A stretch of DNA of 64,000 bases from Streptacidiphilus sp. P02-A3a (GTDB lineage: Bacteria; Actinomycetota; Actinomycetes; Streptomycetales; Streptomycetaceae): contig NZ_CP048289.1 of assembly GCF_014084105.1 (NCBI RefSeq), forward strand, positions 3,481,922 to 3,545,921, written 5' to 3'. Both the position numbers and the translations under genes were made by a program. Below are positions 10,748 to 31,200 of the stretch, piece after piece. The number at the start of each line of letters is the position of its first letter. Position 1 is the first letter of the stretch. Below the pieces are notes generated by a model. The model worked only from the letters and a program-made list of their open reading frames with translations. It ran no database searches and was not told the origin of the DNA.

Positions 10748-11749
10748 TCAGCTGTCGAAACCGGCGTGCACGTGGTCGTGGTGCGTGTTGTCGGAGAAGA
10801 ACTGGTCCGGCGCGCCGCCGCCGAGCGGCCAGGGGCCGCCCACGTTGTAGGACCCGGCGGCGGCAGCGGCCCGCATGAACCCCTCCACCAGGGACCTCGG
10901 GGTCGCCGGGTCCACCACCTGGTGGCCGTCGATCCGCCACACGTCGAAGGCCCGGCCCTTCGGGTGGTCGCTCGGCCGGTCCGTGCCGAACACGTCGAGC
11001 GGATGCCCCGAGCGGACCACGCTCAGCTCCATCCGGTAGCCGCCGGTCAGCGTCAACAGCGCCTCCAGGGCGCTCTGGTGGACGTTGCCGCTGCGCACGT
11101 CCGCCTCGGCGGCGGGCGGCAGGGTGATCGCCGACGAGGCCAGCACCCGCTGCGCCGCCGTCGGCAGTGACCCGGCGGCGGGGCCCGGCCGCGCCGGGTG
11201 CAGCGCGGTCACCGTCCACCGCGGCCGCGCCTGCGACAGCCGGACGTCCACGGTGGTCCCGCCGGGCACGACCAGCCCCCGCGGGCCGCGGGTCCACTGG
11301 CGGCAGACCACCAGCACGCTGGCGGAGTCGCTGAGGATCCCGCCGTACTGCGCCTCCAGCACCTCCAGCGAGGCGGCGGGCGCGTCCGGCAGCAGCGGTC
11401 CGGCCTGGGCGGCCAGCGCCGGGTCGAGACCCAGCGCCGCCACCCGCCCGCGCGCGGCGGCCAGGCCCCGCTGCCCGGTCGGCCAGCTGCCCAGCGCCTC
11501 GATCAGCCGCACCGCCCGCAGCTTGACCTGCGGGTCGATGTCGTTGCTGCTCGGCTGCCACGGCGCGAACTGCGGCAGCGCCGCCGGGGCGGTCCCGGAG
11601 GCCGAGGCGGTCTCGGAGGCGGACGTGGACGGGGTGGCCGGGGCCGGGGTGGCCGGGGCCGGGGCGGCGTGGCCGGAGGCGCACCCGGCCGTGCCCAGGG
11701 CGCCCGCCAGCGCACCGGCGATCAGGCCCCGCCTGCTGAGGGAGTCCAC
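10748..11749 (-). CDS. Exported Tat lipoprotein-like protein, M15-type peptidase fold
   Basis: A 333-residue protein with a twin-arginine-like leader (SLSRRGLIAGALAGALG) and a cysteine in TAGC that could be lipidated. A Pro/Ala/Thr-rich linker follows. The C-terminal third contains SDHPKGRAFD (H262, D269) and HHDHVHAGF (H326, H328), the zinc-ligand pattern of M15/VanY DD-peptidase-like folds. It may trim peptidoglycan peptides outside the membrane. A longer reading from 11947 would lack any sense; GTG at 11749 places the Tat motif at the N-terminus. Confidence 0.68.
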   Translation of the reverse strand: MDSLSRRGLIAGALAGALGTAGCASGHAAPAPATPAPATPSTSASETASASGTAPAALPQFAPWQPSSNDIDPQVKLRAVRLIEALGSWPTGQRGLAAARGRVAALGLDPALAAQAGPLLPDAPAASLEVLEAQYGGILSDSASVLVVCRQWTRGPRGLVVPGGTTVDVRLSQARPRWTVTALHPARPGPAAGSLPTAAQRVLASSAITLPPAAEADVRSGNVHQSALEALLTLTGGYRMELSVVRSGHPLDVFGTDRPSDHPKGRAFDVWRIDGHQVVDPATPRSLVEGFMRAAAAAGSYNVGGPWPLGGGAPDQFFSDNTHHDHVHAGFDS

Positions 11750-11912
11750 CCGGCCAGTCTGCCCGTCCCCGCCCGCCCCGGTACCCGGCTCGCCGGGACC
11801 GTCCGCCGACCGGACCACTACCGGGCGCACCCGAACGGAGCAGCGGCGGGCATCGCCAGGGCACGCTCCGGCTCGCGTTGCGGGGCCCCGGCGCGTCCCG
11901 CAGCCTGGGCGC

Positions 11913-14669: not shown

Positions 14670-14964
14670 GCGGTCGACCCTAGATGCACCCAAAGCCGCC
14701 CAACAAGAGCCCGTGGCGAAGAATATTGATTGAAACAAGGTTGATCCAAGCACAAGTGAGCATGAAGTACCCCCCTGTGAGCGCCGAGGGCGGGTTCGGT
14801 GGTGGGCCTGGGCCGGGCCTGGACCGGGTCCCGAGTTGGGTCTTGACCGTAGCGCGGCGGAGTGCCAGATTGACCACATCCAGCTAATGGTCTGGCCATA
14901 GCCCATTGAATTCTGCTGCACCGCACCTGTGTCCCCCACACACGAAGCAAGGAGCGTGGCGTTC
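14670..14964. promoter_or_regulatory. Divergent promoter region
   Basis: A 295-nt non-coding stretch between the hypothetical gene and the permease operon, noticeably more AT-rich at 14700-14770 (for example GAAGAATATTGATTG). AAGGAG lies 10 nt before the permease ATG at 14965. No palindrome stood out clearly enough to call an operator. Confidence 0.45.
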
Positions 14965-16572: not shown

Positions 16573-17896
16573 GGCCCTGGTCGCCGACGGCAGCGTGGAC
16601 ACCGTCGTGCTGGCGATGACCGACATGCAGGGACGCCTCCAGGGCAAGCGCCTGGCGGCCGACTTCTTCCTCAGCGACGTCGTCCCGCACGCCGCCGAGG
16701 CCTGCGGCTACCTGCTGGCCGTCGACACCGACATGAACACCGTGGACGGCTACGAGCTGTCCTCCTGGGAGACCGGCTACGGCGACCTGGTGCTGCGACC
16801 AGACCTGTCCACGCTGCGGATGGTCCCCTGGCACCCGGGCACGGCCATGGTCCAGTGCGACGTCCTGGACCACCACGGCGAGGCGGTCGCGGTCTCGCCC
16901 CGGCAGATCCTGCGCCGCCAGCAGGAGCGGCTGGCCGCGCACGGCCTGCACGCCTACGCCGGGACCGAGTTGGAGTTCATCGTCTTCCGCGACAGCTACG
17001 AGCAGGCGTGGGAGCGGAACTACCAGAAGCTGGTACCGGTCAACCAGTACAACGTGGACTACTCGATCCTGGGCACCGGGCGGGTCGAGCCGCTGCTGCG
17101 CCGGCTGCGCAACTCGATGAGCGGGGCCGGGCTGACCGTCGAGTCGGCCAAGGGCGAGTGCAACCTGGGCCAGCACGAGATCGCCTTCAAGTACAACGAG
17201 GCGCTGGCCGCCTGCGACGACCACTCGGTCTACAAGACCGGGGCCAAGGAGATCGCCGCGCAGGAGGGGGTGAGCCTGACCTTCATGGCCAAGTACGACG
17301 AGCACGAGGGCAACTCCTGCCACATCCACCTGAGCCTGCGCGACGACGACGGCCGCCCGGCCATGGCGGGGGAGGGCCCGCACGGCTTCTCCCCGCTGAT
17401 GGAGCACTTCCTGGCCGGGCAACTGGCCTGCCTGGCGGACTTCTCGCTGCTGCTCGCCCCGACCGTGAACGCCTACAAGCGGTACGTCCCCGGCAGCTTC
17501 GCGCCCACCGCCATCGCCTGGGGCCGGGACAACCGGACCTGCGCGCTGCGGGTGGTCGGCCACGGGGCCTCGCTCCGCTTCGAGAACCGGGTGCCCGGCG
17601 GCGACGTCAACCCCTACCTCGCGGTGGCCGCGCTGATCGCCGCCGGGCTGCACGGCCTGGAGCAGGAGCTGCCGCTGGAACCGGAGTTCACCGGCAACGC
17701 CTACGCCTCCGACGCCCCCCGGGTGCCCGCCAACCTGCGTGACGCGGTGGACGCCTTCGCCCGTAGCGCGGTCGCCGAGCGGGCCTTCGGCAAGGACGTG
17801 GTCGACCACTACACCAACGCCGGGCGGATCGAACTGGCGGCCTTCGACGCGGCGGTGACCGACTGGGAGCGGCGCCGCGGATTCGAGCGGCTGTGA
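16535..17896 (+). CDS. Glutamine-synthetase-like gamma-glutamyl-amine ligase
   Basis: A 453-residue GS-family enzyme. Metal and glutamate-site motifs are visible: GTELEFIVF, ECNLGQHEI, GNSCHIHLSL and NRTCALRVVGHG, then RFENRVPGGDVNPYLA. It lacks the adenylylation-loop tyrosine pattern of true GlnA-I and clusters by context with PuuA/GlnA3/GlnA4-type enzymes. These join glutamate to an amine instead of ammonia. Flanking permease, amidase-type hydrolase and aldehyde dehydrogenase genes support amine catabolism. The exact amine cannot be read from the sequence. Confidence 0.88.
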   Translation: MSNPGRLTLARLEALVADGSVDTVVLAMTDMQGRLQGKRLAADFFLSDVVPHAAEACGYLLAVDTDMNTVDGYELSSWETGYGDLVLRPDLSTLRMVPWHPGTAMVQCDVLDHHGEAVAVSPRQILRRQQERLAAHGLHAYAGTELEFIVFRDSYEQAWERNYQKLVPVNQYNVDYSILGTGRVEPLLRRLRNSMSGAGLTVESAKGECNLGQHEIAFKYNEALAACDDHSVYKTGAKEIAAQEGVSLTFMAKYDEHEGNSCHIHLSLRDDDGRPAMAGEGPHGFSPLMEHFLAGQLACLADFSLLLAPTVNAYKRYVPGSFAPTAIAWGRDNRTCALRVVGHGASLRFENRVPGGDVNPYLAVAALIAAGLHGLEQELPLEPEFTGNAYASDAPRVPANLRDAVDAFARSAVAERAFGKDVVDHYTNAGRIELAAFDAAVTDWERRRGFERL

Positions 17897-18636
17897 TGAC
17901 CGGCACCCGCCCGCTGATCGGGATCACCAGCTACCTGGACGAGGCGTCCTGGGGGGTGTGGCGGCAGCGCGCCGCGCTGCTCCCGCACACCTACGTCGCC
18001 GCGGTCACCACCGCCGGGGCCACCGCCGTGCTGCTGCCGCCGCAGCCGGACGGCGCCGAGGACCTGGTGGCCAGGCTCGACGGACTGGTCGTCGCGGGCG
18101 GCCCCGACGTCGACCCGGCGCGCTACCGGGCGACGGCCGACCCGCGTACCGACCAGCCGCACACCGCCCGCGACAGCTGGGAGTTGGAGCTGCTGCGGGC
18201 CGCGCTCGGGCGCGACCTGCCGGTGCTCGGGGTGTGCCGGGGGATGCAACTGCTGAACGTCGCCCTCGGCGGACGGCTGGTGCAGCACCTGCCGGACCGG
18301 GTGGGCGACGCCAGCCACCAGCCCGCCCGCGCGGTCTTCGGCGAGCTGACCGCGCGGGTCCGGCCGGGCAGCCTGCTCGGCGGCATCGTCGGCGACTCGG
18401 TCGGCGTGCGCTGCTACCACCACCAGGCGGTCGCCGAACTCGGTGCCGGGCTGCGGCCGACGGCGTGGAGCGAGGACGAGACGGTGGAGGCGATCGAGCT
18501 CCCCGACCGCCGCTTCGTCCTCGGCGTCCAGTGGCACCCGGAGACCGACCCGGGCGACCCCCGCCTGTTCGGGGCCCTGGTGGCCCAGGCCCGGACCACC
18601 AGGGCCCCGGCACCGGCCGCCGGAGAACCCACCTGA
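17896..18636 (+). CDS. Gamma-glutamyl-amide hydrolase (peptidase C26)
   Basis: A 246-residue class-I glutamine-amidotransferase-like hydrolase related to PuuD. The nucleophile is the cysteine in LGVCRGMQLLN (about residue 114), and the His-Glu pair is in QWHPE. It would free the product from glutamate at the end of a gamma-glutamylated amine pathway. The start overlaps the preceding stop as TGATG; GTG at 17893 is an equal alternative. An Ala/Pro tail precedes a tandem repeat that begins at the stop codon. Confidence 0.88.
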   Translation: MTGTRPLIGITSYLDEASWGVWRQRAALLPHTYVAAVTTAGATAVLLPPQPDGAEDLVARLDGLVVAGGPDVDPARYRATADPRTDQPHTARDSWELELLRAALGRDLPVLGVCRGMQLLNVALGGRLVQHLPDRVGDASHQPARAVFGELTARVRPGSLLGGIVGDSVGVRCYHHQAVAELGAGLRPTAWSEDETVEAIELPDRRFVLGVQWHPETDPGDPRLFGALVAQARTTRAPAPAAGEPT

Positions 18637-18702
18637 CCCACCCGCCACCGACCCACCCGCCACCGACCCACCCGCCACCCGCCACCGACCCACCCGCCAC
18701 CG
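18636..18702 (+). repeat. 15-bp tandem repeat in operon
   Basis: Units of ACCCACCCGCCACCG run at 18636-18650, 18651-18665, 18666-18687 (with a 7-nt internal duplication) and 18688-18702. The array fills the gap between the hydrolase stop and the aldehyde dehydrogenase ribosome site. The C-rich RNA is predicted to be poorly structured and might keep the intergenic region open. Slippage variants between strains are likely. Confidence 0.85.
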
Positions 18703-18727
18703 CGAGCCGAAAGGGAACACCCCACCC

Positions 18728-20128
18728 ATGACCGAACCCCTGCCCGCTGCCCCCGCCAGTACGGCACCGCCCTACGACGTGGTCAATCCGGCGACGGAGA
18801 AAGTCATCGAGACCGTGGCGATGGCGGATCTGGCCGCCACCGACGCCGCCATCGCCCGGGCCCGGGCCGCCTACCAGGACTGGCGCCGGGTGGCGCCCGC
18901 CGACCGGGCGCGGCTGCTGCGGGCCTTCGCCGCCGCGGTCGACGCCGACCGCGAGCGGCTGGCCCGGCTGGAGGTGGCCAACGCGGGCCACACCATCGGC
19001 AACGCCCGCTGGGAGGCGGGCAACGCGCGCGACGTGATCGAGTACTACGCCGCCGCGCCCGAGCGCAACATGGGTCGGCAGATCCCGGTCCAGGGCGGGA
19101 TCGACGTCACCTTCAAGGAGCCGCTGGGCGTGGTCGGGGTGATCGTGCCGTGGAACTTCCCGCTGCCGATCGCCGCCTGGGGCCTGGCCCCGGCGCTCGC
19201 GGCCGGGAACACGGTGGTGCTCAAGCCCGCCGAGCTCACCCCGCTGACCGCGCTGCGGCTGGCCGAACTGGCGCTGGAGGCCGGGATCCCGCCGGGGGTG
19301 TTCCAGGTGCTGCCGGGCCACGGTCCGCTGGTCGGGGCGCGCTTCGCCACCCATCCGGACGTCCGCAAGGTCGTCTTCACCGGTTCCACGGCCGTCGGCA
19401 AGCAGCTGATGGCCGCCTGCGCGGCCCAGGTCAAGCCGATCACGCTGGAACTCGGCGGCAAGAGCGCCAACATCGTCTTCGCCGACTCCGACCTGGAGGC
19501 GGCGGCGGCCAGCGCGCCCGGGGCGGTCTTCGACAACGCCGGGCAGGACTGCTGCGCGCGGTCCCGGATCCTGGTCCAGAGCTCGGTGTTCGACGCGTTC
19601 ATGGCCCGGTTCGAGACCGCGGTGGCGGCGGTACGGGTCGGCGACCCGGCGCTGGAGGACACCGCGATGGGGCCGCTGATCTCCGCCGCGCACCGGACCC
19701 GGGTGGCCGGCTACGTGCCCGAGGGGGCCGACGTGGCCTTCCGCGGCAGCGTCCCGGAGGGGCCGGGGTTCTGGTTCCCGCCCACGGTGCTGCTGCCGGG
19801 ATCGCACCAGGACCCGGCGTTCACCGAGGAGATCTTCGGCCCGGTGGTCACCGTCGTCCCGTTCACGGACGAGGCCGACGCGGTGCGCATCGCCAACGAC
19901 ACCGATTACGGCCTGTCCGGCTCCATCTGGACCCGCGACCTGGGCCGCGCGCTGCGGGTCGCCCGCGCTGTCGAGTCCGGCAACCTGTCGGTCAACTCGC
20001 ACTCCTCGGTGCGCTACTCCACGCCCTTCGGCGGCTTCAAGCAGTCGGGCCTCGGCCGGGAACTCGGCCCGGACGCGCTCGACTCGTTCACCGAGACCAA
20101 GAACGTCTTCATCTCCACGGAGGGATAG
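18728..20128 (+). CDS. NAD(P)-dependent aldehyde dehydrogenase
   Basis: A 466-residue ALDH with the NAD-site stretch VPWNFPLPIAAWGLAPALAA, glutamate E241 in ELGGKSAN, catalytic C275 in NAGQDCC, and EIFGPVV. In this operon it would oxidise a gamma-glutamyl-aldehyde to the acid, as PuuC does. GGGAAC before the ATG is a weak ribosome site. A lactaldehyde or succinate-semialdehyde role remains possible because the fucose genes are close. Confidence 0.88.
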   Translation: MTEPLPAAPASTAPPYDVVNPATEKVIETVAMADLAATDAAIARARAAYQDWRRVAPADRARLLRAFAAAVDADRERLARLEVANAGHTIGNARWEAGNARDVIEYYAAAPERNMGRQIPVQGGIDVTFKEPLGVVGVIVPWNFPLPIAAWGLAPALAAGNTVVLKPAELTPLTALRLAELALEAGIPPGVFQVLPGHGPLVGARFATHPDVRKVVFTGSTAVGKQLMAACAAQVKPITLELGGKSANIVFADSDLEAAAASAPGAVFDNAGQDCCARSRILVQSSVFDAFMARFETAVAAVRVGDPALEDTAMGPLISAAHRTRVAGYVPEGADVAFRGSVPEGPGFWFPPTVLLPGSHQDPAFTEEIFGPVVTVVPFTDEADAVRIANDTDYGLSGSIWTRDLGRALRVARAVESGNLSVNSHSSVRYSTPFGGFKQSGLGRELGPDALDSFTETKNVFISTEG

Positions 20129-20134
20129 CACACC

Positions 20135-20902
20135 ATGAGCAACCGACTGGACGGCCGCGTCGCCGTCATCACCGGAGCCGGCAGCGGCATCGGCCTCGCC
20201 AGCGCCCGGCGCCTGGCGTCCGAGGGGGCCAAGGTCGTCTGCGTGGACCTGGACCAGGTCTCCGGCAAGCGGGCCGCGGACGAGGTGGACGGCCTGTTCG
20301 TGCAGGCCGACGTCACCGACGAGGACGCGGTCCGGGGCATGTACGAGACCGCGGTCGCCGAGTTCGGCCGCCTGGACATCGCCTTCAACAACGCCGGGAT
20401 CTCCCCGCCGGAGGACGACTCGATCCTGACCACCGGCCTGGACGCCTGGCGCCGGGTGCAGGAGGTGAACCTCACCAGCGTCTACCTGTGCTGCAAGTAC
20501 GCCATCCCGCACATGCAGCGGCAGGGCAAGGGCTCGATCATCAACACCGCCTCGTTCGTGGCGCTGATGGGCGCGGCCACCTCGCAGATCTCCTACAGCG
20601 CCTCCAAGGGCGGGGTGCTGTCGATGTCCCGGGAACTCGGCGTCCAGTTCGGGCGCGAGGGGATCCGGGTCAACGCGCTGTGCCCGGGGCCGGTCAACAC
20701 CCCGCTGCTACAGGAGCTGTTCGCCAAGGACCCGGAGCGGGCCGCCCGCCGCCTGGTGCACATCCCGATGGGCCGGTTCGCCGAGCCGGACGAGATCGCC
20801 GCCGCCGTCGCCTTCCTGGCCAGCGACGACTCCTCGTTCATGACCGCCAACACCTTCCTGGTCGACGGCGGCATCTCGGCCGCGTACGTGACCCCGTTGT
20901 AG
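20135..20902 (+). CDS. Short-chain dehydrogenase/reductase
   Basis: A 255-residue classical [11 protein letters not shown] near residue 14, NNAG, NTASFVALMG with the catalytic serine, and YSASK. The C-terminal LASDDSSFMTANTFLVDGG is typical. It starts 6 nt after the aldehyde dehydrogenase. In an ethanolamine-type pathway it could oxidise gamma-glutamyl-ethanolamide to the aldehyde that the ALDH then uses. It could instead be a general beta-ketoacyl reductase-like enzyme. Confidence 0.85.
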   Translation: MSNRLDGRVAVITGAGSGIGLASARRLASEGAKVVCVDLDQVSGKRAADEVDGLFVQADVTDEDAVRGMYETAVAEFGRLDIAFNNAGISPPEDDSILTTGLDAWRRVQEVNLTSVYLCCKYAIPHMQRQGKGSIINTASFVALMGAATSQISYSASKGGVLSMSRELGVQFGREGIRVNALCPGPVNTPLLQELFAKDPERAARRLVHIPMGRFAEPDEIAAAVAFLASDDSSFMTANTFLVDGGISAAYVTPL

Positions 20903-20918
20903 GACCGTCCGGCCGTGG

Positions 20919-20949
20919 CCCCAATGGAGCTTTGTCCAGTCCATTGGGG
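20919..20949. promoter_or_regulatory. 10+10 bp perfect inverted repeat before GntR gene
   Basis: CCCCAATGGA (20919-20928) and TCCATTGGGG (20940-20949) are exact complements with an 11-nt spacer. The element is 36 nt before the GntR start. It may be the autoregulatory operator of that protein, or a terminator-like hairpin for the amine operon that ends at 20902. No T-run follows, so the operator reading is preferred. Confidence 0.6.
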
Positions 20950-20984
20950 TTAGGCTGGGCGCCCATGCCCAGGGAGGGACGACG

Positions 20985-21740
20985 ATGGGGCAACAGATCG
21001 CACTGGGCGGTGACCTGGAGCGGCGTGACCTGGTCAGCGAGGCGGTCTTCCGCCCGGTGCGGACCGGCAACGCCTTCGAGGAGACGGTCGAGCGGCTGCT
21101 GCACGCCATCAAGCTGGGCCTGGTCGCCCACGGCGACAGCCTGCCCCCGGAGCGCGAACTGGCGACCCGGCTCGGCGTCAGCCGGGTCACCCTGCGCGAG
21201 GCGATCCGGGCGCTCCAGCAGGCCGGGTACGTCGAGTCACGCCGGGGCCGCTACGGCGGCACCTTCGTCACCTACCAGCCCGCCGAGCCCGGGCAGGGCG
21301 ACCTCCGCCGGATCGCCGCCGACCTGGGCGAGGACATCGACGACGCGCTGCGCTACCGCCAGGTGCTGGAGCCCGGAGCCTGCGCGCTGACCGCCGCCCG
21401 GGCACTGACCGGGGAGCAGCGGCACTACCTGCAGGCCCGGCTGGACGACGTGGCCCGGGCCGACAGCGCCGGCTACCGGCTGATGGACTCCCGCTTCCAC
21501 CTGGCCATCGCCGAGATGGCCGGATCGCCCTCGCTGTACGTCAGCATCGAGAGCACCCGGCTGCGGCTGAACGACCTGCTGAACGCGATTCCGCTGCTCC
21601 AGCCCAACATCGAGCACTCGGAGCGGCAGCACCGGGCGATCCTCACCGCCATCCTCACCGGCGACGCCGAGGCCGCCTACCGCGAGATGGAGCAGCACGT
21701 GACCGGCACCGCCTCACTGCTGCGCGGCTTCCTGGGCTGA
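20985..21740 (+). CDS. FadR/FCD-type GntR regulator
   Basis: A 251-residue regulator. Residues about 25-95 are a GntR winged helix (LPPERELATRLGVSRVTLRE). The rest is an all-helical FCD ligand domain with DSRFHLAIAEMAGS and the metal-ligand pattern ending in EHSERQHRAIL. It sits between the amine and fucose operons, so it may govern either or both. The fucose promoter contains two related half-palindromic sites that could be its targets. The ligand is likely a carboxylate such as L-lactate or a fuconate intermediate (inference). Confidence 0.88.
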   Translation: MGQQIALGGDLERRDLVSEAVFRPVRTGNAFEETVERLLHAIKLGLVAHGDSLPPERELATRLGVSRVTLREAIRALQQAGYVESRRGRYGGTFVTYQPAEPGQGDLRRIAADLGEDIDDALRYRQVLEPGACALTAARALTGEQRHYLQARLDDVARADSAGYRLMDSRFHLAIAEMAGSPSLYVSIESTRLRLNDLLNAIPLLQPNIEHSERQHRAILTAILTGDAEAAYREMEQHVTGTASLLRGFLG

Positions 21741-21807
21741 GCCCTCCCCGAACGTTCCCGGCGGCATCCTCGTCGGCGGCCCCAGTGATCCTGCGATCCG
21801 GCAGAGA

Positions 21808-21892
21808 CATCGGATGAATAATTCAAGCGGCTCTTGAAAGGGTGGTCACTGGCGTTCTAAGGTCTGTCCATCGGCGGTATTCGTCAGATGAA
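21808..21892 (+). promoter_or_regulatory. Fucose operon promoter with two operator-like sites
   Basis: A promoter-like pair TTGAAA (21834-21839) and TAAGGT (21858-21863), 18 nt apart, is framed by two related sequences. These are CATCGGATGAAT (21808-21819) upstream and CGTCAGATGAAT (21882-21893) downstream; the latter lies in the near-palindrome TTCGTC-A-GATGAA (21880-21892). Placement on both sides of the promoter is what a looping or blocking GntR repressor would use. The motif is seen; control by the adjacent GntR protein is inferred. Confidence 0.55.
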
Positions 21893-21938
21893 TCATCGGC
21901 CGCCGGACCGACAGACCCCGCAGGAAAGCAGAGGCCCC

Positions 21939-23273
21939 GTGACCGCCCGGATCACCGCCGTCGACACCTACGACATCCGGTTCCCCACCTCGCGCGAGCT
22001 CGACGGCTCCGACGCGATGAACCCCGACCCCGACTACTCGGCGGCCTACCTGGTGCTGCGCACCGACGCCGGGGACGGCCTGGAGGGGCACGGCTTCACC
22101 TTCACCATCGGCCGGGGCAACGACGTCCAGGTCGCCGCGATCGAGGCGATGCGCCCCTACATCGTCGGACGTTCCGTCAGCGAGCTTTGCGCCGACCCGG
22201 GTTCACTCAGCCGCGACCTGGTCGGCGACAGCCAACTGCGCTGGCTCGGACCGGAGAAGGGGGTGATGCACATGGCGATCGGCGCCGTCGTCAACGCCGT
22301 CTGGGACCTCGCCGCCAAGCGCGCCGACCAACCCCTGTGGCGGCTGCTGGCCGACGCCGAACCCGAGTGGCTGGTCTCCCAGGTCGACTTCCGCTACATC
22401 GACGACGCGCTCACCCCGGAACAGGCCCTGGAGCTGCTGCGCTCGGCCCGGCCCGGGCGGGCCGAGCGGGAACAGCAGCTGCTGCGGCGCGGCTACCCCG
22501 GCTACACCACCTCGCCCGGCTGGCTCGGCTACTCCGACGAGAAGCTGACCCGGCTCGCCCGCAAGGCGCTGGCCGACGGCTTCACCCAGATCAAGCTGAA
22601 GGTCGGCGCCGACCTGGCCGACGACGTCCGCCGCTGCCGGGCCGCCCGCGCGGCCGTCGGCCCCGGTGTCCGCATCGCCATCGACGCCAACCAGCGCTGG
22701 GGCGTCGCCGAGGGCATCGCCTGGACCCGGGCCCTGGCCGAGTTCGACCCGTACTGGATCGAGGAGCCCACCAGCCCGGACGACATCCTCGGCCACGCCG
22801 CCATCCGCACCGGGGTCGCCCCGATCCGGGTCGCCACCGGCGAGCACGTGCAGAACCGGGTCGTCTTCAAGCAGCTGCTCCAGGCCGGGGCGGTGGACGT
22901 GGTGCAGATCGACGCGGCCCGGGTCGGCGGCGTCAACGAGAACCTGGCCATCCTGCTGCTCGCCGCCCGGTTCGGGGTCCCGGTCTGCCCGCACGCGGGC
23001 GGCGTCGGCCTCTGCGAACTGGTGCAGCACCTGTCCATGTTCGACTTCGTGGCGCTCTCCGGTACCACCGAGGACCGCGTCATCGAGCACGTCGACCACC
23101 TGCACGAGCACTTCCTGGCACCGGTGCGGATGGACCAGGGCCACTTCCGCGCGCCCACCGCCCCCGGGTTCTCGGCCCAGATGCACGCCGGGTCGATCAG
23201 CAGGTACACCTATCCTGACGGCGAGTTCTGGGCCGCCGACCTGGCCGAGAGGGAAGAGGCGAAGGCTGTATGA
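21939..23273 (+). CDS. fucD: L-fuconate dehydratase
   Basis: Enolase-superfamily enzyme (444 residues) that dehydrates L-fuconate to 2-keto-3-deoxy-L-fuconate. It contains the catalytic lysine segment QIKLKVG, metal ligands in [18 protein letters not shown] and GEHVQNR, and [11 protein letters not shown] near the end. The long N-terminal [20 protein letters not shown] segment is characteristic of fuconate dehydratases. The GTG at 21939 gives the family length; an in-frame ATG at 21888 overlaps the operator. First gene of an eight-gene overlapping operon. Confidence 0.93.
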
Positions 23274-24040
23274 GGGACTTCGACGGACTGCGTGCCATCG
23301 TCACCGGCGGTGCCTCCGGCATCGGCCGGGCCACCGCCCTGCTGCTGCGCGAACGCGGCGCCGAGGTCGCGGTGCTGGACCTCGATCCGGACGCGGCGCC
23401 CGAGCCGCTGCACGCGCTGCGCGCCGACGTCGCCGACGACGCCTCGGTGCGCGCCGCGGTGGCCGAGGCGATCGGCCTGCTCGGCGGGCTGGACATCCTG
23501 GTCAACAACGCCGGGATCGGCGCCGCCGGCACGGTCGAGGACAACCCCGACGAGCAGTGGCACCGGGTACTGGACGTCAACGTGCTTGGCATCGTGCGGA
23601 CCACCCGCGCGGCGCTGCCGCGGCTGCGGGCCTCGAACCACGCGGCGATCGTCAACACCTGCTCGATCGCCGCCACCGCCGGGCTGCCGCAGCGGGCGCT
23701 GTACTCGGCCAGCAAGGGCGCGGTGCTGTCGCTGACCCTGGCCATGGCCGCCGACCACGTCCGCGAGGGCATCCGGGTCAACTGCGTCAACCCCGGCACC
23801 GCGGACACCCCCTGGGTCGGCCGACTGCTCGACGCCGCCGACGACCCGGCCGCCGAGCGGGCGGCGCTCAACGCCCGCCAGCCGATGGGCCGACTGGTCA
23901 CCGCCGACGAGGTCGCCGCCGCCATCGCCTACCTGGCGAGCCCGGCCGCCGCCTCGGTCACCGGGACCGCGCTCGCCGTCGACGGCGGCATGCAGGGCCT
24001 GCGGGTACGGCCCGCCGCGACCGGCGAGGAGACCCGATGA
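23270..24040 (+). CDS. SDR, 2-keto-3-deoxy-L-fuconate dehydrogenase
   Basis: A 256-residue SDR with [14 protein letters not shown], the serine in [15 protein letters not shown] and [17 protein letters not shown]. The last stretch is found in the dehydrogenases that oxidise 2-keto-3-deoxy-L-fuconate to the 2,4-diketo acid. Its 4-nt overlap with the fuconate dehydratase supports that step. The exact substrate is inferred from order and motif. Confidence 0.86.
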
Positions 24041-25020
24041 GGTCCACCGCCCTGGGGCACGGCGACGTCCAGGTGACCGACCTGGCCTTCGGCGCCGCCG
24101 CACTCGGCAACCTCTTCACCGAGGTCGGCGCGGCCGAGGCCGAGGCCGCGCTGCTGACCGCCTGGGACGCGGGCATCAGGTACTTCGACACCGCCCCGCA
24201 CTACGGCCTGGGCCTGTCCGAACGCCGGGTCGGCGCCGCGCTGCGGCAGCGGCCCCGCGACTCCTACACCCTGTCGACCAAGGTCGGCCGCCTGCTGGAG
24301 CCCACCCCGGACGCCACCGGCGACGACCTGGCCAGCGGCTTCGCGGTCCCCTCCAGCCACCGCCGGGTCTGGGACTTCAGCGCCGACGGCGTGCTCCGCA
24401 GCATCGAGGCCAGCCTGGAACGGCTGGGCCTGGACCGGATCGACGTGGCCTACCTGCACGACCCGGACGACCACCCCGCGCAGGCGCTGGACCAGGCCTA
24501 CCCGGCGCTGGAGCGGCTGCGGGCCGAGGGCGTGGTCGGCGCGATCGGCGCCGGGATGAACCAGTCGGCGCTGCTCACCAGGTTCGTCCGGGAGACCGAC
24601 GTGGACGTGGTGCTGCTGGCCGGCCGGTACACCCTGCTCGACCAGGACGGACTGGCCGAGCTGCTGCCCGAGGCCGCGCGTCGGGGCACCTCGGTGGTGG
24701 TCGGCGGGGTGTTCAACTCCGGTCTGCTGGCCGACCCGCGCCCCGGCGCCAGCTACGACTACGCCCCGGCGGCGCAGCCGCTGCTGGAGCGGGCGCTGCG
24801 GATCCAGGCGGTCTGCGAGCGGCACGGCGTGCCGCTGCGCGCCGCCGCGCTGCGCTTCCCCTTCGGCCACCCCGCCGTCCGCAGCGTGCTGGTGGGGATG
24901 CGGTCGGCGGCGGAGGTGCGCGACGCGGTCGCCATGGCCGAGCGGCCCGTGCCCGGGGAGCTGTGGCAGGAGCTGCGGGCCGAGGGCCTGCTGCCGCTGG
25001 AGGCGCCGGTATGCGGGTAG
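24037..25020 (+). CDS. Aldo/keto reductase, L-fucose dehydrogenase type
   Basis: A 327-residue AKR of the group that includes D-threo-aldose/L-fucose 1-dehydrogenases: NLFTEVGAAEAEAALLTAWDAG, then the catalytic FDTAPHYGLGLSERRVG, YLHDPDDHPAQ and VVVGGVFNSGLL. It would oxidise L-fucose to L-fucono-lactone, the first step of the oxidative route. Overlaps the SDR by 4 nt and lutA by 10 nt. Confidence 0.88.
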   Translation: MRSTALGHGDVQVTDLAFGAAALGNLFTEVGAAEAEAALLTAWDAGIRYFDTAPHYGLGLSERRVGAALRQRPRDSYTLSTKVGRLLEPTPDATGDDLASGFAVPSSHRRVWDFSADGVLRSIEASLERLGLDRIDVAYLHDPDDHPAQALDQAYPALERLRAEGVVGAIGAGMNQSALLTRFVRETDVDVVLLAGRYTLLDQDGLAELLPEAARRGTSVVVGGVFNSGLLADPRPGASYDYAPAAQPLLERALRIQAVCERHGVPLRAAALRFPFGHPAVRSVLVGMRSAAEVRDAVAMAERPVPGELWQELRAEGLLPLEAPVCG

Positions 25021-25715
25021 CCCTGTTCATCACCTGCTTCAACGACACCCTCTACCCGGACACCGGCAAGGCCGTGGTCCGGCTGCTGCGACGGCTCGGC
25101 CACCAGGTGGAGTTCCCGGCCGACCAGACCTGCTGCGGCCAGATGCACCTCAACACCGGCTACCGCCGCGAGGCCGCCCCGCTGGCCCGGCACTTCGCCG
25201 AGGTCTTCGCCGGGTACGACGCCGTGGTCAGCCCCTCGGCCTCCTGCGCGGGCATGGTCAGGGACAGTCACCAGGAACTGACGGGCCATCAACCGCCGTC
25301 GGTGTACGAACTGGTGGAGTTCCTGGTGGACGTGCTCGGGGTGACCGACGTGGGCGCGTACTACCCGCACAAGGTCGCCTACCACCCCACCTGCCACTCG
25401 CTGCGCGGCCTCGGCCTGGGCGAGAAGCCGCTGCGGCTGCTGCGCGCGGTACGCGGGCTGGAACTGGTCCCGCTCCCGGCGGCGGACTCCTGCTGCGGCT
25501 TCGGCGGCACCTTCGCGCTGAAGAACGCCGACACCTCCAACGCGATGCTCGCCGACAAGACCCTCGCGGTGCGCGGCTGCGGCGCCGAGGTGCTGTGCGC
25601 GGCGGACAACTCCTGCCTGATGCACATCGGCGGCGGCCTCTCCCGGCAGGGCGCCGACGTGCGGACGCTGCACCTGGCCGAGATCCTGGCCGCCACGGAA
25701 GGGGACCAGGGATGA
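25011..25715 (+). CDS. lutA: LutA, lactate-oxidising complex subunit
   Basis: A 234-residue subunit of the LutABC L-lactate dehydrogenase complex. Two CCG iron-sulfur/heterodisulfide-type motifs are present: TCCGQMHLNTG near residue 39 and SCCGFGGTF in the second half. Homologues of LutA (YkgE) carry electrons during oxidation of L-lactate to pyruvate. It begins inside the last codons of the aldo-keto reductase gene and overlaps lutB by 4 nt. Confidence 0.92.
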   Translation: MRVALFITCFNDTLYPDTGKAVVRLLRRLGHQVEFPADQTCCGQMHLNTGYRREAAPLARHFAEVFAGYDAVVSPSASCAGMVRDSHQELTGHQPPSVYELVEFLVDVLGVTDVGAYYPHKVAYHPTCHSLRGLGLGEKPLRLLRAVRGLELVPLPAADSCCGFGGTFALKNADTSNAMLADKTLAVRGCGAEVLCAADNSCLMHIGGGLSRQGADVRTLHLAEILAATEGDQG

Positions 25716-27205
25716 CCAAGCCCGACAACACCGTGTGGCTGGGCGCGCCCGCCTTCCCGGTGGCCGCCCGCGCGGCCCTGGCCGACGGTCAGTTGCGGTC
25801 CAACCTGAGGCACGCCACCACCACCATCCGCGACAAGCGCCTCGCGGTCACCGGCGAACTCGACGACTGGGAGCGGCTGCGCGACGCCGGAGCCGCGCTC
25901 AAGCGGCGGACGCTACGTCATCTGGACAGCTATCTCCTCCAGTTGGAGGAGTCGGTGACCCGCGCGGGCGGCGTGGTGCACTGGGCCGCGGACGCGGACG
26001 AGGCGAACCGGATCGTCACCGGACTGGTCCGGGCGGCGGGCGCCGGCGAGGTGGTCAAGGTCAAGTCGATGGCCACGCAGGAGATCGGACTGAACGAGGC
26101 GCTGGCCGAGGCCGGGATCGCCGCCTACGAGACCGACCTGGCCGAGCTGATCGTGCAGTTGGGCCACGACCGGCCCTCGCACATCCTGGTGCCCGCGATC
26201 CACCGCAACCGCTCCGAGATCCGCGACATCTTCGAGCGGGAGATGGGCAGTTGGGGCCGTGCCGCGCCCGCGGGGCTGACCGACGACCCGGCCGCGCTGG
26301 CCGAGGCGGCCCGGCTGCACCTGCGGGAGAAGTTCCTGCGGGCCAAGGTCGCCGTCTCCGGGGCGAACTTCGCCATCGCCGAGAACGGCACGGTCGGCGT
26401 GGTCGAGTCCGAGGGCAACGGCCGGATGTGCCTGACCCTGCCGCGGACGCTGATCACCGTGATGGGCATCGAGAAGGTGCTGCCCGCCTGGTCCGACCTG
26501 GAGGTGTTCCTGCAACTGCTGCCGCGCTCCTCCACCGGCGAGCGGATGAACCCGTACACCTCCACCTGGACCGGGGTCACCCCCGGTGACGGGCCGCAGG
26601 ACTTCCACCTGGTGCTGCTCGACAACGGCCGCACCGACACCCTGGCCGACACCGTCGGCCGCCAGGCGCTGGCCTGCATCCGCTGCTCGGCCTGCCTCAA
26701 CGTCTGCCCGGTCTACGAGCGGACCGGCGGCCACGCCTACGGCTCGGTCTACCCGGGCCCCATCGGCGCCGTACTCACCCCGCAACTCGTCGGCGTCGGC
26801 GGTGACACCAACGGCGCCGCGGCCTCGCTGCCGTTCGCCTCGACCCTGTGCGGAGCCTGCTACGAGGCCTGCCCGGTGAAGATCGACATCCCCCGGGTGC
26901 TGGTCCACCTGCGGGCGCGGGTGGTCGAGTCGAAGCGGGCCCGGCGGCGGACGCCCACCGCCGAGGCACTGGCGATGCGGGCGGCCGGGATGGTGCTCGC
27001 GGAGCCCGCCCGGCTGCGGGCGGCGCAGCGCGCGGCCCGGATCGGCGGCCGGTTGGTCGCCCGGAGGGGCAGGATCGGCGCGCTGCCGCTCCCCGCCCCG
27101 CTGAACGGCTGGTCGAAGACCCGGGACCTGCCGCAGCCACCCGCGGAGACCTTCCGCGACTGGTGGCAGCGGACCGGCAACACCGCTCAGGAGAACGAGA
27201 CATGA
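25712..27205 (+). CDS. lutB: LutB, iron-sulfur subunit of lactate oxidation
   Basis: A 497-residue protein with an N-terminal LUD domain (VVKVKSMATQEIGLNEAL, FAIAENGTVGVVESEGN) and a C-terminal two-cluster ferredoxin region. The clusters are CIRCSACLNVCPVY and CGACYEACPVKIDIP, each giving a C-x2-C-x2-C-x3-C-type 4Fe-4S site. This is the YkgF/LutB architecture. Coupled to lutA and lutC by 4-nt overlaps. Confidence 0.93.
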   Translation: MTKPDNTVWLGAPAFPVAARAALADGQLRSNLRHATTTIRDKRLAVTGELDDWERLRDAGAALKRRTLRHLDSYLLQLEESVTRAGGVVHWAADADEANRIVTGLVRAAGAGEVVKVKSMATQEIGLNEALAEAGIAAYETDLAELIVQLGHDRPSHILVPAIHRNRSEIRDIFEREMGSWGRAAPAGLTDDPAALAEAARLHLREKFLRAKVAVSGANFAIAENGTVGVVESEGNGRMCLTLPRTLITVMGIEKVLPAWSDLEVFLQLLPRSSTGERMNPYTSTWTGVTPGDGPQDFHLVLLDNGRTDTLADTVGRQALACIRCSACLNVCPVYERTGGHAYGSVYPGPIGAVLTPQLVGVGGDTNGAAASLPFASTLCGACYEACPVKIDIPRVLVHLRARVVESKRARRRTPTAEALAMRAAGMVLAEPARLRAAQRAARIGGRLVARRGRIGALPLPAPLNGWSKTRDLPQPPAETFRDWWQRTGNTAQENET

Positions 27206-27855
27206 CGACACGTGAGACCGTTCTGGCCCGGATCAGGAGCGCGCTCGCGGACGTCCCCGAGCAGGAGACGCCGGAGCTGGTCGCGGTGCCGCGCGACTAC
27301 CGGCGCAGCCACGCCGACGAGGACGTGGTGGCGCTGTTCGCCGAGCGGGTCGCCGACTACCGCGCCCGGGTGCTGCGGGTCGGCCGGTCCGAGGCGCGGG
27401 CGGCGGTCGCCGGACTGCTGGCCGAGCGCGGCGTGCGGACGCTGGTGGTGCCGTCCGGCTTCCCCGAGGAGCTGCTGCCCCCCGGTCCGTGGCAGTGCCT
27501 GGCGGACACCCCGCCGCTGGACGTCACCGCCCTGGACGCCGCCGACGGGGTGCTCACCACCGCCGCCCTCGGCATCGCGGTCACCGGCACCCTGGTCCTG
27601 GACGCCGGTCCCGGCCAGGGGCGGCGCGCGCTGACGCTGCTGCCCGACTACCACCTGTGCGTGATCCGCGAGGAGCAGATCCTCGGCGACGTGCCGGAGG
27701 CGATCGCCGCGCTCGACCCGGCCCGGCCGCTGACCTTCGTCTCCGGCCCCTCGGCCACCAGCGACATCGAGTTGCAGCGGGTGGAGGGGGTGCACGGTCC
27801 GCGCACCCTGCACGTCCTGGTCATCGCCGATTCCCCCACCGTGGAGCCCGCATGA
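27202..27855 (+). CDS. lutC: LutC, lactate utilisation protein
   Basis: A 217-residue single LUD-domain protein (YkgG/LutC). The ALGIAVTGTLVLDAGPGQGRR and FVSGPSATSDIE stretches are family hallmarks. It completes the LutABC set that oxidises L-lactate to pyruvate. Cotranscribed with lutAB and the fucose genes. Confidence 0.92.
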   Translation: MTTRETVLARIRSALADVPEQETPELVAVPRDYRRSHADEDVVALFAERVADYRARVLRVGRSEARAAVAGLLAERGVRTLVVPSGFPEELLPPGPWQCLADTPPLDVTALDAADGVLTTAALGIAVTGTLVLDAGPGQGRRALTLLPDYHLCVIREEQILGDVPEAIAALDPARPLTFVSGPSATSDIELQRVEGVHGPRTLHVLVIADSPTVEPA

Positions 27856-28163
27856 GAACCGCCCTGCACACCAGGGTCCGCACCGACCGGATCGAGGAGT
27901 ACGAACAGGCCCACCGCGAGGTGCCGGTGGAACTGACCGACGCCATCCGCGCGGCCGGGTGCCGCTCCTGGACGATCTGGCGCAGCGGGGCCGACCTGTT
28001 CCACCTGATCGACTGCGACGACTACGGTCAACTGATCAGCCACCTCAGTGATCTGACTGTCAATCAGGTCTGGCAGGAGCGGATGGGAGAGCTGCTGGAG
28101 GTGGTCCACGACTACGGCGACGGCGGCGCGGACGCCGCGCTGCCGGTGGTGTGGCAGCTGTGA
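27852..28163 (+). CDS. L-fucose/L-rhamnose mutarotase (RhaM family)
   Basis: A 103-residue ferredoxin-like fold protein of the RhaM/FucU-like mutarotase group: RTDRIEEYEQAHREVP, then WTIWRSGADLFHLIDC and a late VWQERM. It interconverts anomers of a 6-deoxy sugar, speeding substrate supply to the fucose dehydrogenase. Overlaps lutC and the lactonase gene by 4 nt each. Confidence 0.86.
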   Translation: MRTALHTRVRTDRIEEYEQAHREVPVELTDAIRAAGCRSWTIWRSGADLFHLIDCDDYGQLISHLSDLTVNQVWQERMGELLEVVHDYGDGGADAALPVVWQL

Positions 28164-29053
28164 CCGGCCGCACCCCGGCCGACGCGGCGGCACCGCTCGT
28201 CGACGCCCACCACCACCTGTGGGACCTGTCCGTGCGTGACCAGGACTGGATCACCGGACCGGAGTTGGCGCCGCTGCGGCGGGACTTCCTGATCGACGAG
28301 TTCGAGCGGACCGCCCGCGCCGGCGGTGTCGACGCCTCGGTGCTGGTGCAGACCGTGTGCGTCGCGGCGGAGACCCCGGAGCTGCTGGCCGTCGCCGCCG
28401 CCGGAGAGCTGGTGGCGGGTGTGGTCGGCTGGACCGACCTGACCGCGCCCGGGATCGCCGACACCCTGGCCGAGCTGCGGCAACTACCGGGCGGCGCGGC
28501 CCTGGTGGGCCTGCGGCACCAGGTCCAGGGGGAGCCGGACCCGCGCTGGCTGCTGCGTCCGGAGGTACTCCGGGGTCTGCGCCAGGTCGCCGCGGCCGGT
28601 CTGGTCTACGACCTGGTGCTGCTTCCGGAGCAGCTTCCGGCGGCGATCGAGGCGGCGAAAGCCCTGCCGGAGCTGACCTTTGTGCTGGACCACCTGGCGA
28701 AGCCGCCGATCGCCACCGGCGAACTGCGGCCCTGGGCCGAGCGGATCACCGCGCTGGCCGCGCTGCCGAACACCGTCTGCAAACTCTCCGGCCTGGTCAC
28801 CGAGGCCGACTGGTCCGGCTGTTGGAGCAGCGCCGACCTGCGGCCGTACGCGGACACGGTGCTGCGGGCCTTCGGCCCGGAGCGGCTGATGTTCGGCTCC
28901 GACTGGCCGGTGTGCACGCTCGCCGCCGACTATCCGCAGGTGCTGGACATCGCACGGGAGTTGACCTCGGCCCTGGGCCCGGACGAGCGTGCCGCCGTCT
29001 TCGGCGGCACCGCCGTCCGGACCTACGGCCTGCCGGATCCCGCCGCGCGCTGA
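28160..29053 (+). CDS. L-fuconolactonase (amidohydrolase)
   Basis: A 297-residue amidohydrolase_2/COG3618 enzyme. The metal motif VDAHHHLWDLS is at the N-terminus; GLRHQVQGEPDP, VLDHLAKPPI and MFGSDWPVCTLA follow in the expected order. The family opens L-fucono- or L-rhamnono-lactone to the acid, so it links the dehydrogenase to the dehydratase. The start is chosen as the GTG that overlaps the mutarotase stop (GTGA); a GTG 9 nt earlier is possible. Confidence 0.9.
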   Translation: MTGRTPADAAAPLVDAHHHLWDLSVRDQDWITGPELAPLRRDFLIDEFERTARAGGVDASVLVQTVCVAAETPELLAVAAAGELVAGVVGWTDLTAPGIADTLAELRQLPGGAALVGLRHQVQGEPDPRWLLRPEVLRGLRQVAAAGLVYDLVLLPEQLPAAIEAAKALPELTFVLDHLAKPPIATGELRPWAERITALAALPNTVCKLSGLVTEADWSGCWSSADLRPYADTVLRAFGPERLMFGSDWPVCTLAADYPQVLDIARELTSALGPDERAAVFGGTAVRTYGLPDPAAR

Positions 29054-29120
29054 CCGGCTGCCGCCCGGCAGCCGGGGGCCGCGACGAGCGGAGGCCGCGG
29101 ACCGGGTCCGCGACCTCCGC
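29054..29120. terminator. Two hairpins between convergent genes
   Basis: CCGGCTGCCG (29054-29063) pairs with CGGCAGCCGG (29066-29075). A second stem joins GCGGAGGCCGCGGACC (29088-29103) to its near-complement at 29105-29120 with one mismatch. They sit between the ends of the fucose operon and the opposing GH16 gene and would serve both. No U-run is present, as is common in these bacteria. Confidence 0.7.
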
Positions 29121-29139
29121 CGGGTGGCGCCGTGAGCGG

Positions 29140-31200
29140 TCAGCCGCTGAAGGCTTGGAGCTCCCACAGCGAGTAGCCGTACTGCGTGGCCCGCGCGGTG
29201 CCGTACATGCGCAGGTAGCGTCCACTGCCGGAGACGTTCAGCGTCTGGGTGCCGCCGGTCCCGGTGGTGGTGGAGTAGATCGGGGTCCAGTTCGTTCCGT
29301 CGTTGGAGGTCTGGATCTGGAAGGCGGTCGCGTACGCGGTCTCCCAGTACAGCGTCACCTGGCAGATCGACTGGGTGGAGCCCAGGTCCACCTCCAGCCA
29401 CTGCGGGTCGGAGAACGCGCTGGACCAGCGGGTGCCGGTGGTGTTGCCGTCGAACGCCTCCTGCGGGGTGAAGCTGGAGTTCTGCGAGGAGGAGGCGGTC
29501 GCCGGCTTGTTCAGGGCGATGTCGGTGGTACCGCAACCGCCCCCGGCCGCGTTGACCGTCCAGCTGAACGAGGTGGATCCGGTGGCGCCGGTGGAGTCGG
29601 TGGCGGTGACCGTGACGGCCGAGGTGCCCGCCGCGGTCGGGGTGCCGGAGATCAGGCCGGTCGCGGAGTTGATCGACAGCCCGGCGGGCAGCCCGCTGGC
29701 GCTGTACGTCAGCGACTGCCCGGCGGCCGAGTCACTGGCCTGCACCTGGAGGCTTGCGGCGGTGCCGACGGTCGAGGTCTGGCTGCCGGGACCGGTGACG
29801 CTGACCGTGTTGCTGGTGCCGCCGCCGCCTCCGGTGGGCAGCGTCCACTGCTGGTCGGCGGTGTCGGCGCAGGTCTCGATGTCCAGCCTGGCGGTGGTGT
29901 TGCTGCCCGGATCGGTGAGGCACAGACCGGAGTTGGGGTTCACCAGCTCGCCGTTGGACTGGTGGGACCAGCCCTGGGCGTTGGTGCCGTTGCACGGGTA
30001 CCAGTCGACGTCGGTGCCGCTGGTGGTCCCGGCGCTGACCACGTCCAGGCAACCGCCCTGGACCCGTACCGTGTTGTCGCTGTACGGCGACCACTGCTCA
30101 CCCGGATCGCCGTCGCAGGCGCTCAGCCCGATCGGGTTGCCCTCGGTGTTGAGCACGTTCTCGTTGACCAGGCACTGCCCGTTCAGCCCGGTGACCTCGC
30201 CGGTGGCGGAGGCGGTCGCGGTCGGGGTGGAGTTGCCGCCCTGCTCGTAGACCGCCACGTACGCCACGCTCATCGACGCGCCGGAGGTGGTCGCCGCGGT
30301 CGGGGTGGTGGAGCCGTAGACCCCGTCCGGGTAGTTGCCGCCCATGGCGAGGTCCCAGATGATGAAGAAGCCGTGGTCCACGGCCTCCTGCCAGGCCGTG
30401 GTGCCCACCGAGGCCTCGGTGATGGTCTCCTCGACCGTGCCGTCCATCAGGAACTGCATGGTCTCCGCGCTGGTGTTGGTCCGGTTCACGATCACCGAGT
30501 AGGTGTGGTAGCCGGTCTGGCAGCTGGAGCTGGTGTTGGGACAGGCGATCAGCGCGTGGCCGCTGCTGCCCGCCGCGTCGTGCAGGGTCTGCGACGCCTG
30601 GTTGGAGCCGTTGACGTCCTCCATCATGTCGATCTCGCCGGAGGTGGGCCAGCCGCCGCCGGCCCGCATCGGCGAGCCGAGGGCCCAGAACGCGGGCCAG
30701 TAGCCGAGGCCGTTGGCCGGGTTCGGCTGCTCGATCGAGGCGGTCATCTCCAGCTCGCCGCCGGCCGGGGCCTGGAAGTCGTCGCGGGTGCTCTCCAGCC
30801 GGGCGGAGTTCCAGGTGCCGTTGTTGTCGGTGGCCTTGAGCACCAGGTGCCCGTTGCCGTCGAGGTAGGCGTTGTTGGTGGAGTTGGTGGTCTGCTCGAT
30901 CTCACCGGTGCCGTAACCGGTGCCGATGTCGTAGAACCAGTTCGCGGCGGAGGGCGCGGAACCCGCCGGACCGGCGAAGTTGTCGCCGAACACGGTCGTC
31001 CAGCCGGCCGAGGCGGCGGGCACCGTGTCGGCCAGTGCGGCGGGCGCGACGGCCAGGGTGGCGGTCACCGTGCCGCCGAGGCAGGCGGCGAACAGCGCCG
31101 CGGTGGTCAGTAGTGAGCGAAGCCTGGGCGAGCCGGATATCCGCTCGCGTGACTTCGCCCGGCGGCCGGAGTCCCGGCCACTGCGTGATAGGGCGAACAT
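29140..31200 (-). CDS. Secreted GH16 beta-glucanase, multi-module
   Basis: A 686-residue exported enzyme. An arginine-rich signal peptide with cleavage near ALA-D58 is followed by a GH16 domain (about 65-330) with the catalytic ExDxxE at E189-D191-E194 (SGEIDMMED). Next come a ricin-type CBM13 (about 345-460), an Ig-like putative domain (about 470-550) and a C-terminal F5/8-type CBM32 (about 555-686). Laminarin or other beta-1,3-glucans are the likely target. AAGGGA precedes the ATG. Confidence 0.9.
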   Translation of the reverse strand: MFALSRSGRDSGRRAKSRERISGSPRLRSLLTTAALFAACLGGTVTATLAVAPAALADTVPAASAGWTTVFGDNFAGPAGSAPSAANWFYDIGTGYGTGEIEQTTNSTNNAYLDGNGHLVLKATDNNGTWNSARLESTRDDFQAPAGGELEMTASIEQPNPANGLGYWPAFWALGSPMRAGGGWPTSGEIDMMEDVNGSNQASQTLHDAAGSSGHALIACPNTSSSCQTGYHTYSVIVNRTNTSAETMQFLMDGTVEETITEASVGTTAWQEAVDHGFFIIWDLAMGGNYPDGVYGSTTPTAATTSGASMSVAYVAVYEQGGNSTPTATASATGEVTGLNGQCLVNENVLNTEGNPIGLSACDGDPGEQWSPYSDNTVRVQGGCLDVVSAGTTSGTDVDWYPCNGTNAQGWSHQSNGELVNPNSGLCLTDPGSNTTARLDIETCADTADQQWTLPTGGGGGTSNTVSVTGPGSQTSTVGTAASLQVQASDSAAGQSLTYSASGLPAGLSINSATGLISGTPTAAGTSAVTVTATDSTGATGSTSFSWTVNAAGGGCGTTDIALNKPATASSSQNSSFTPQEAFDGNTTGTRWSSAFSDPQWLEVDLGSTQSICQVTLYWETAYATAFQIQTSNDGTNWTPIYSTTTGTGGTQTLNVSGSGRYLRMYGTARATQYGYSLWELQAFSG

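Follow-up and report, generated by a model that had tools for sequence, protein, structure and literature searches.

According to the accessible parts of PMC11199699, route 3 of non-phosphorylating L-fucose degradation uses the enzymes FucM, FucA, FucB, FucC, FucF and FucG. The same source reports 2-keto-3-deoxyfuconate (KDF) dehydrogenases from Xanthomonas campestris, Herbaspirillum huttiense and Acidovorax avenae, and states that the rhamnose route passes through an identical diketo intermediate, with a hydrolase, LRA6, that is phylogenetically close to FucG. In 2017, the fucolactone genes fclABCDE were predicted in eight gut actinobacterial genomes. A fucose ABC system co-clusters with the fcl genes in Streptomyces sp. 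HGB0020, so this cluster type with its importer is already in print (PMC5583593, available in part). For L-rhamnose, lldD or lldEFG was placed in RhaR regulons of Actinomycetales and Rhodobacterales in 2013 (PMC3870299, available in part). Here we describe a 64,000-nucleotide stretch of the genome of Streptacidiphilus sp. P02-A3a (contig NZ_CP048289.1, positions 3,481,922 to 3,545,921; hereafter the window), in which a run of eight genes joins a predicted L-fucose route to lutABC. It is likely, in our view, that these genes make up the principal operon of a regulon for non-phosphorylating L-fucose catabolism, in which LutABC oxidises internal L-lactate to pyruvate.

The operon consists of eight intact open reading frames (ORFs), all on the + strand between 21939 and 29053, in the order fucD, SDR, AKR, lutA, lutB, lutC, rhaM-type mutarotase and amidohydrolase-type lactonase (Table 1). 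The genes overlap at all seven junctions, by 10 nt between AKR and lutA and by 4 nt at the other six (ATGA five times, GTGA once), and are predicted to be co-transcribed. A first interpretation made from the letters alone, which we call the sequence-only reading, had reported eight genes overlapping by 4-10 nt; this layout was borne out, with the starts of fucD and the lactonase corrected. fucD probably starts at GTG 21939 rather than ATG 21888, because its alignment with the solved structure 1YEY begins at residue 5 counted from that GTG, and ATG 21888 lies inside a palindrome. The motif AGGAAAG stands ahead of this GTG at 21922. The lactonase starts either at GTG 28160, which gives the 4-nt overlap, or at GTG 28151. 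A promoter and terminator scan of 20900-29400 returned none of either kind.

The gene names of the sequence-only reading were likewise backed by Pfam and NCBIfam (MR_MLE, SDR, AKR, CCG, LUD with LutB_C, LUD, rhaM and Amidohydro_2). Sequence comparison gave close relatives with an established function for both FucD and the lactonase: FucD aligns over its whole length (residues 5-438) with the L-fuconate dehydratase 1YEY, its closest solved relative, and the lactonase matches 4DLF, which we take to be a characterised L-fucono-1,5-lactonase. The lactonase also matches the L-fucono-1,5-lactonase model NF052480, at family level only, because its score of 235.2 bits is below the cut-off of 400. The SDR shares 68-84% identity with its counterparts at 11 other fuc loci, and it matches 8XWK/8Y4J/8Y11 and 2AG5, none of them as best match. 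By Pfam and NCBIfam, the lut genes encode a CCG protein, a LUD/4Fe-4S/LutB_C protein and a LUD protein, in the LutABC/LldEFG order. LutB scores 443.7 bits against a TIGR00273 cut-off of 444.8, and a generic Streptomyces LutB (L116; L and G numbers denote our loci and genomes, G000 being the genome of the window) also stays just short of it at 444.5 bits. Among the matches listed (best 25 per protein), LutC has no NCBIfam row and no operon protein reaches a curated NCBIfam cut-off.

Table 1. Positions of the operon genes, associated palindromes and related genes elsewhere
Feature	Position	Strand	Basis
fucD (FucC), L-fuconate dehydratase	21939..23273	+	phmmer to 1YEY 6.2e-209; Pfam MR_MLE
SDR, predicted L-2-keto-3-deoxyfuconate 4-dehydrogenase (FucF)	23270..24040	+	SDR family, conserved across fuc loci
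AKR, predicted L-fucose 1-dehydrogenase (FucA)	24037..25020	+	Pfam Aldo_ket_red, family level
lutA, CCG-domain Fe-S protein	25011..25715	+	PF02754, 5.5e-33
lutB, LUD + 4Fe-4S protein	25712..27205	+	TIGR00273 6.6e-133; Pfam LUD, LutB_C
lutC, LUD-domain protein	27202..27855	+	PF02589 9.4e-23
rhaM/YiiL-family mutarotase, predicted L-fucose mutarotase (FucM)	27852..28163	+	PF05336 1.9e-17
L-fucono-1,5-lactonase (FucB), amidohydrolase family	28160..29053	+	NF052480 1.1e-69; PDB 4DLF 6.9e-54
Operator-like palindrome AGACATCGGATGAAT	21805..21819	.	2 mismatches to ATACATCSGATGTAT, motif of relatives' fuc promoters
Second palindrome ATTCGTCAGATGAAT, just before coding region	21879..21893	.	genome's only exact site of ATTCRTCNGAYGAAT
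Candidate 2,4-diketo-3-deoxy-fuconate hydrolase, FAH family	G000:C1:8111998-8112861	-	best solved relative 8GSR 3.3e-70
lutABC of L166 (G414)	8915-11800		closest LutABC relative of window's

The fuc-lutABC arrangement is recurrent in related actinobacteria and not peculiar to the window. We mapped the genes by tblastn around the best 80 FucD loci of at least 596 relatives. All three lut genes were present at nine of these loci (L027, L028, L040, L049, L051, L062, L080, L082 and L084), which belong to Streptomyces (three), Kitasatospora, Actinocorallia, Peterkaempfera, Streptacidiphilus, Actinoplanes and Catenulispora. In eight of the nine, lutABC comes after the AKR gene, and in L027 it comes after the mutarotase gene; the order FAH-fucD-SDR-AKR-lutA-lutB-lutC-mutarotase-lactonase is complete in five (L028, L040, L049, L051 and L062). 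By the criteria of our script, 29 of the 80 loci have a FAH gene immediately ahead of fucD and in the same orientation. The genus sample comprised 14 genomes including the own one, and contexts were covered for LutB at 80% identity or more to that of the window. Eight genomes have such a LutB, and in seven lutABC stands together with fuc genes: the own genome, Streptacidiphilus jiangxiensis (L062/G408), and L167, L169, L170, L171 and L172. The last five have FAH at the operon and an RbsABC-type importer divergent beside it. The lut-bearing gene order, which the sequence-only reading had proposed to look for, recurs in both samples. Across 394 genomes sampled from the class (FucD at E up to 1e-100, LutB at E up to 1e-60), FucD was found in 98, LutB in 156 and both in 46; fucD and lutB lie 10 kb or less apart in 4 (G000, G126, G216 and G313) of the 43 genomes with both for which LutB positions were listed, a set that excludes G095, G301 and G393.

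The phylogeny of LutABC also points to a link with fucose. In the LutB tree (30 rows, 13 from fuc loci), 11 of the 13 fuc-locus rows form one clade with support 98/95, and L123 and L125, fuc loci of other families, form a separate clade. The concatenated LutABC tree (29 rows, the long row L127 being dropped) supports the two fuc clades with 100/99 (11 fuc operons) and 100/100. Two origins of fuc-type LutABC were preferred, and a single origin was not rejected (p-AU 0.176). The LutABC of the window lies inside the fuc-operon clade, apart from generic Streptomyces LutABC, whose clade takes in L110 (the second copy of G216) and L115. LutABC also accompanies a FAH of the fuc-locus group at two loci without fucD, L115 and L168. 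LutABC of the window is the likely L-lactate oxidase, and L-lactate disposal is the best reading of its presence.

One could argue instead that LutABC is the general system of this genome for external L-lactate, which ended up among the fuc genes through a chance rearrangement. Indeed, lutB and lutC of the operon are the only LUD-domain matches in the genome, LutB occurs in all 40 genomes of the same family in the class sample (own included), and the closest LutB (G414) is located away from fuc genes. However, the window LutABC belongs to the fuc-operon clade and not to the generic one, seven of the nine named genomes whose fuc operon carries lut genes show another LutB match elsewhere, and no lactate permease was seen among the ORFs read beside the window lutABC, unlike at L111. 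We regard this explanation as unlikely, although it is the best-surviving of the alternatives.

The regulon is most likely dispersed rather than self-contained. The sequence-only reading had called the route self-contained in one transcript, which is wrong for this genome: the likely hydrolase is encoded at 8.112 Mb, and no close RbsB-type match was found. Its remark that the hydrolase is not at the locus holds, and the genome search for a FAH-type hydrolase that it had proposed gave this candidate among five FAH-family genes. We built a FAH tree of 31 rows, 27 from loci of relatives (25 with fucD, plus L115 and L168) and four from the own genome, whose 3.607-Mb FAH was left out. The 8.112-Mb FAH groups with the 27 FAHs of relatives' fuc/lut loci, apart from the three other own FAHs, with moderate support (88/89). 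Its best solved relative, 8GSR, is an L-2,4-diketo-3-deoxyrhamnonate hydrolase. No fucose gene was seen beside it. Taken together, the missing hydrolase is most likely this orphan FAH gene. We considered and rejected the idea that the operon FAH of the congeners had moved to 8.112 Mb, as the gene there falls outside the clade of their operon FAHs; for the same reason, it is more likely that a FAH of a different lineage took its place. The hydrolase, encoded 4.6 Mb away from the operon, would cleave the diketo acid to pyruvate and L-lactate. LutABC, encoded in one run with the fucose genes, would convert this internal L-lactate to pyruvate and pass the electrons to respiration, and one L-fucose would yield two pyruvate in total.

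A palindrome shared by the operon and the FAH gene connects the two places. The pattern ATTCRTCNGAYGAAT was derived from the window, and ATACATCSGATGTAT is a consensus read from the sites of relatives found with ATTCRTCNGAYGAAT. For the 80 loci, we compared the 700 bp before the first fuc gene (57,966 bp overall) with the remainder of the loci (1,591,983 bp). Allowing up to two mismatches, ATTCRTCNGAYGAAT had 46 sites upstream versus 8 in the remainder, and the upstream sites were distributed over 25 of the 80 loci and 20 of the 29 FAH-first loci. ATACATCSGATGTAT had 47 upstream versus 14 other sites (28 of the 80 loci, 21 of the 29 FAH-first loci), a count that is partly circular. In the own 9.33-Mb genome, ATACATCSGATGTAT with up to two mismatches had three sites, where a dinucleotide model of the window predicts 0.43: one before fucD at window position 21805, and two flanking the FAH gene, at 8111898 and 8112914. 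The site at 8112914 is 52 bp before the GTG start of FAH. The other (8111898-8111912) is the only exact copy of ATACATCSGATGTAT in the genome and was already known from the ATTCRTCNGAYGAAT search before ATACATCSGATGTAT was fixed. It lies 85 bp past the FAH stop, between convergent genes, which is not a promoter position and is odd for an operator. With up to three mismatches, there were 12 sites in the genome, with about 10 expected and 5 for a backwards-pattern control. No fucose gene was seen among the genes around the ATTCRTCNGAYGAAT sites at 1.43, 2.53, 8.44 and 8.94 Mb or around the three-mismatch sites at 0.31, 2.75, 7.73, 7.99 and 9.29 Mb, and the fuc-lut loci L109 and L123 had no palindrome at up to three mismatches.

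As for the protein that would bind these sites, a FadR protein encoded at G000:C1:5992936-5993637 is 81% identical to the FadR near the fuc cluster of L049, and appears to be a better candidate regulator than the FadR-type gene next to the operon. The latter, directly upstream on the + strand (20985-21740; FCD and GntR domains by Pfam), was rejected for this role: it shares 31-33% identity with the FadR proteins beside relatives' fuc clusters, and it follows what reads in translation as a polyamine-like cluster.

The sequence-only reading had also noted that no sugar importer is at the locus. This statement stood, and the genome search gave a mixed answer. The RbsB-type binding protein of relatives has no close match in the own genome, where two matches at E up to 1e-10 have 28-29% identity. 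The best uptake candidate is an ABC importer accompanied by GH95 at 3.31-3.32 Mb, where an ABC binding protein and permease, a LacI regulator and a GH95 glycosidase are encoded between 3.312 and 3.324 Mb. The binding protein, LacI and GH95 are 67%, 60% and 73% identical to products of genes about 8 kb or less from the L062 fuc operon. Two operator-like sites with three mismatches precede the own GH95 gene; since 12 sites at up to three mismatches were found versus about 10 expected, they are weak alone and rest on the L062 synteny, and the GH95 gene of L062 has no upstream site at up to three mismatches. PF01120 alpha-L-fucosidase had no match in the own genome.

Several observations weigh against a fucose regulon with its own lactate oxidase. 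A full lutABC set was not shown at 71 of the 80 fuc loci (contig ends cut some of them), and the association of FucD and LutB across the 394 genomes is not significant (Fisher p 0.096). The LutB closest to that of the window (87% identity) stands without fuc genes in a 19.9-kb stretch. The 8.112-Mb FAH lies outside the clade that the operon FAHs of the congeners form, as described above, and the best solved relative of the SDR is an uncharacterised oxidoreductase and not a KDF dehydrogenase entry. Finally, L-lactate could also be oxidised by any of the four full-length FMN_dh proteins of the genome; none of them reaches a cut-off among the NCBIfam models listed, a comparison in which two of the four entered as domain pieces only.

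Another sugar, L-galactose or D-arabinose, might be the natural substrate, in which case the small product would not be L-lactate and LutABC would have a different role. The best solved relatives of the AKR carry the name L-galactose dehydrogenase, FucD enzymes are promiscuous, and the GH95 family also holds alpha-L-galactosidases. Against this, the closest solved relative of FucD is an L-fuconate dehydratase, the lactonase matches both the L-fucono-1,5-lactonase model and 4DLF, PF01120 alpha-L-fucosidase genes adjoin the fuc operon in L109 and L027, and a lactate-oxidase cassette fits L-lactate, so that we find another substrate improbable. Least probable of all is a decaying remnant, with importer, regulator and hydrolase gone from the locus and a route that no longer works. 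FAH and RbsABC are present at the operon in five congener loci while the own genome lacks a close RbsB match, and decay does occur (L064 has lutABC fragments only), but none of the eight ORFs is disrupted, and fucD and the orphan FAH have kept operator-like sites.

The fucose regulon with internal lactate oxidation remains our preferred reading, and a wider idea may be put forward tentatively, as a possibility on which we would not rely: fuc-type LutABC and FAH could form a reusable module for splitting off and oxidising L-lactate on different sugar routes, recruited more than once and losable by deletion. Besides the fuc operons, three loci suggested it. The second locus of G413 (L168:8445-16774) has FAH-SDR-AKR-lutABC, with lutABC three genes beyond a FAH of the fuc-locus group, and had no match to fucD, mutarotase or lactonase. 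At L115:7511-11559, a FAH of the fuc-locus group stands directly before lutABC of the generic clade, and its genome, G232, has no FucD match at E 1e-100. In the fuc operon of Streptomyces griseoflavus (L064:13109-13964), fragments of lutA, lutB and lutC are left between AKR and mutarotase; therefore, the lut cassette can be lost. As side observations, a zinc-type dehydrogenase gene and, by translation reading, ABC importer genes are near the L168 genes, and a FadR-type regulator gene, also by translation reading, is divergent at L115.

The surroundings of the operon in the window contain other genes. Window 14929-21740 carries genes for an APC permease, a glutamine-synthetase-like protein, a C26 peptidase-like protein, an aldehyde dehydrogenase, an SDR and the FadR; with labels taken from reading translations, the set resembles a cluster for polyamine or ethanolamine catabolism in this soil actinobacterium. 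Downstream, on the - strand, a long ORF (29140-31200) reads in translation as a GH16-like/lectin protein.

Overall, the non-phosphorylating L-fucose route to pyruvate and L-lactate with LutABC, as first suggested from the sequence, is backed by gene order, LutABC phylogeny and the shared palindrome. By this route, each L-fucose gives rise to one L-lactate, a by-product in need of re-oxidation, and for an operon that includes a lactate oxidase, conversion to two pyruvate is predicted. A function is also proposed for an orphan FAH gene, together with an operator palindrome and a candidate regulator in actinobacteria. A fuc operon with lutABC was not found in the literature searched, in which subscription journals were thinly covered and most matches were by title, nor was the LutABC coupling. 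PMC13406643 and PMC10444878 describe the L-fucose route, and no linked lactate oxidase was seen in their accessible parts.

Compared with route 3, the window has the same predicted enzyme set and products, pyruvate and L-lactate, but lutABC is inserted and the hydrolase gene is elsewhere; the accessible parts of PMC11199699 mention no lactate oxidase in a cluster. The fcl clusters share the route to lactate and pyruvate, the phylum, and an importer beside the genes as in relatives of the window. They differ in that the own genome has its predicted importer and hydrolase away from the locus, and the available text of PMC5583593 mentions neither lutABC nor L-lactate oxidation, the term 'L-lactate' being absent from it. 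With the LutABC/LldEFG operons for L-lactate, the window has in common the three protein families and their order, whereas its LutABC clade is separate from the generic actinobacterial LutABC sampled and no adjacent lactate permease was seen. The L-rhamnose regulons, as far as PMC3870299 was available, embody the same idea of lactate oxidation genes joined to a sugar route; they are phosphorylative (RhaEW), whereas the route in the window is predicted to be non-phosphorylating, is directed at L-fucose, and is encoded in one run of overlapping genes. Each half of the system thus has a precedent in the accessible parts of these papers: fcl clusters in actinobacteria (PMC5583593), and LutABC coupling in L-rhamnose metabolism (PMC3870299).

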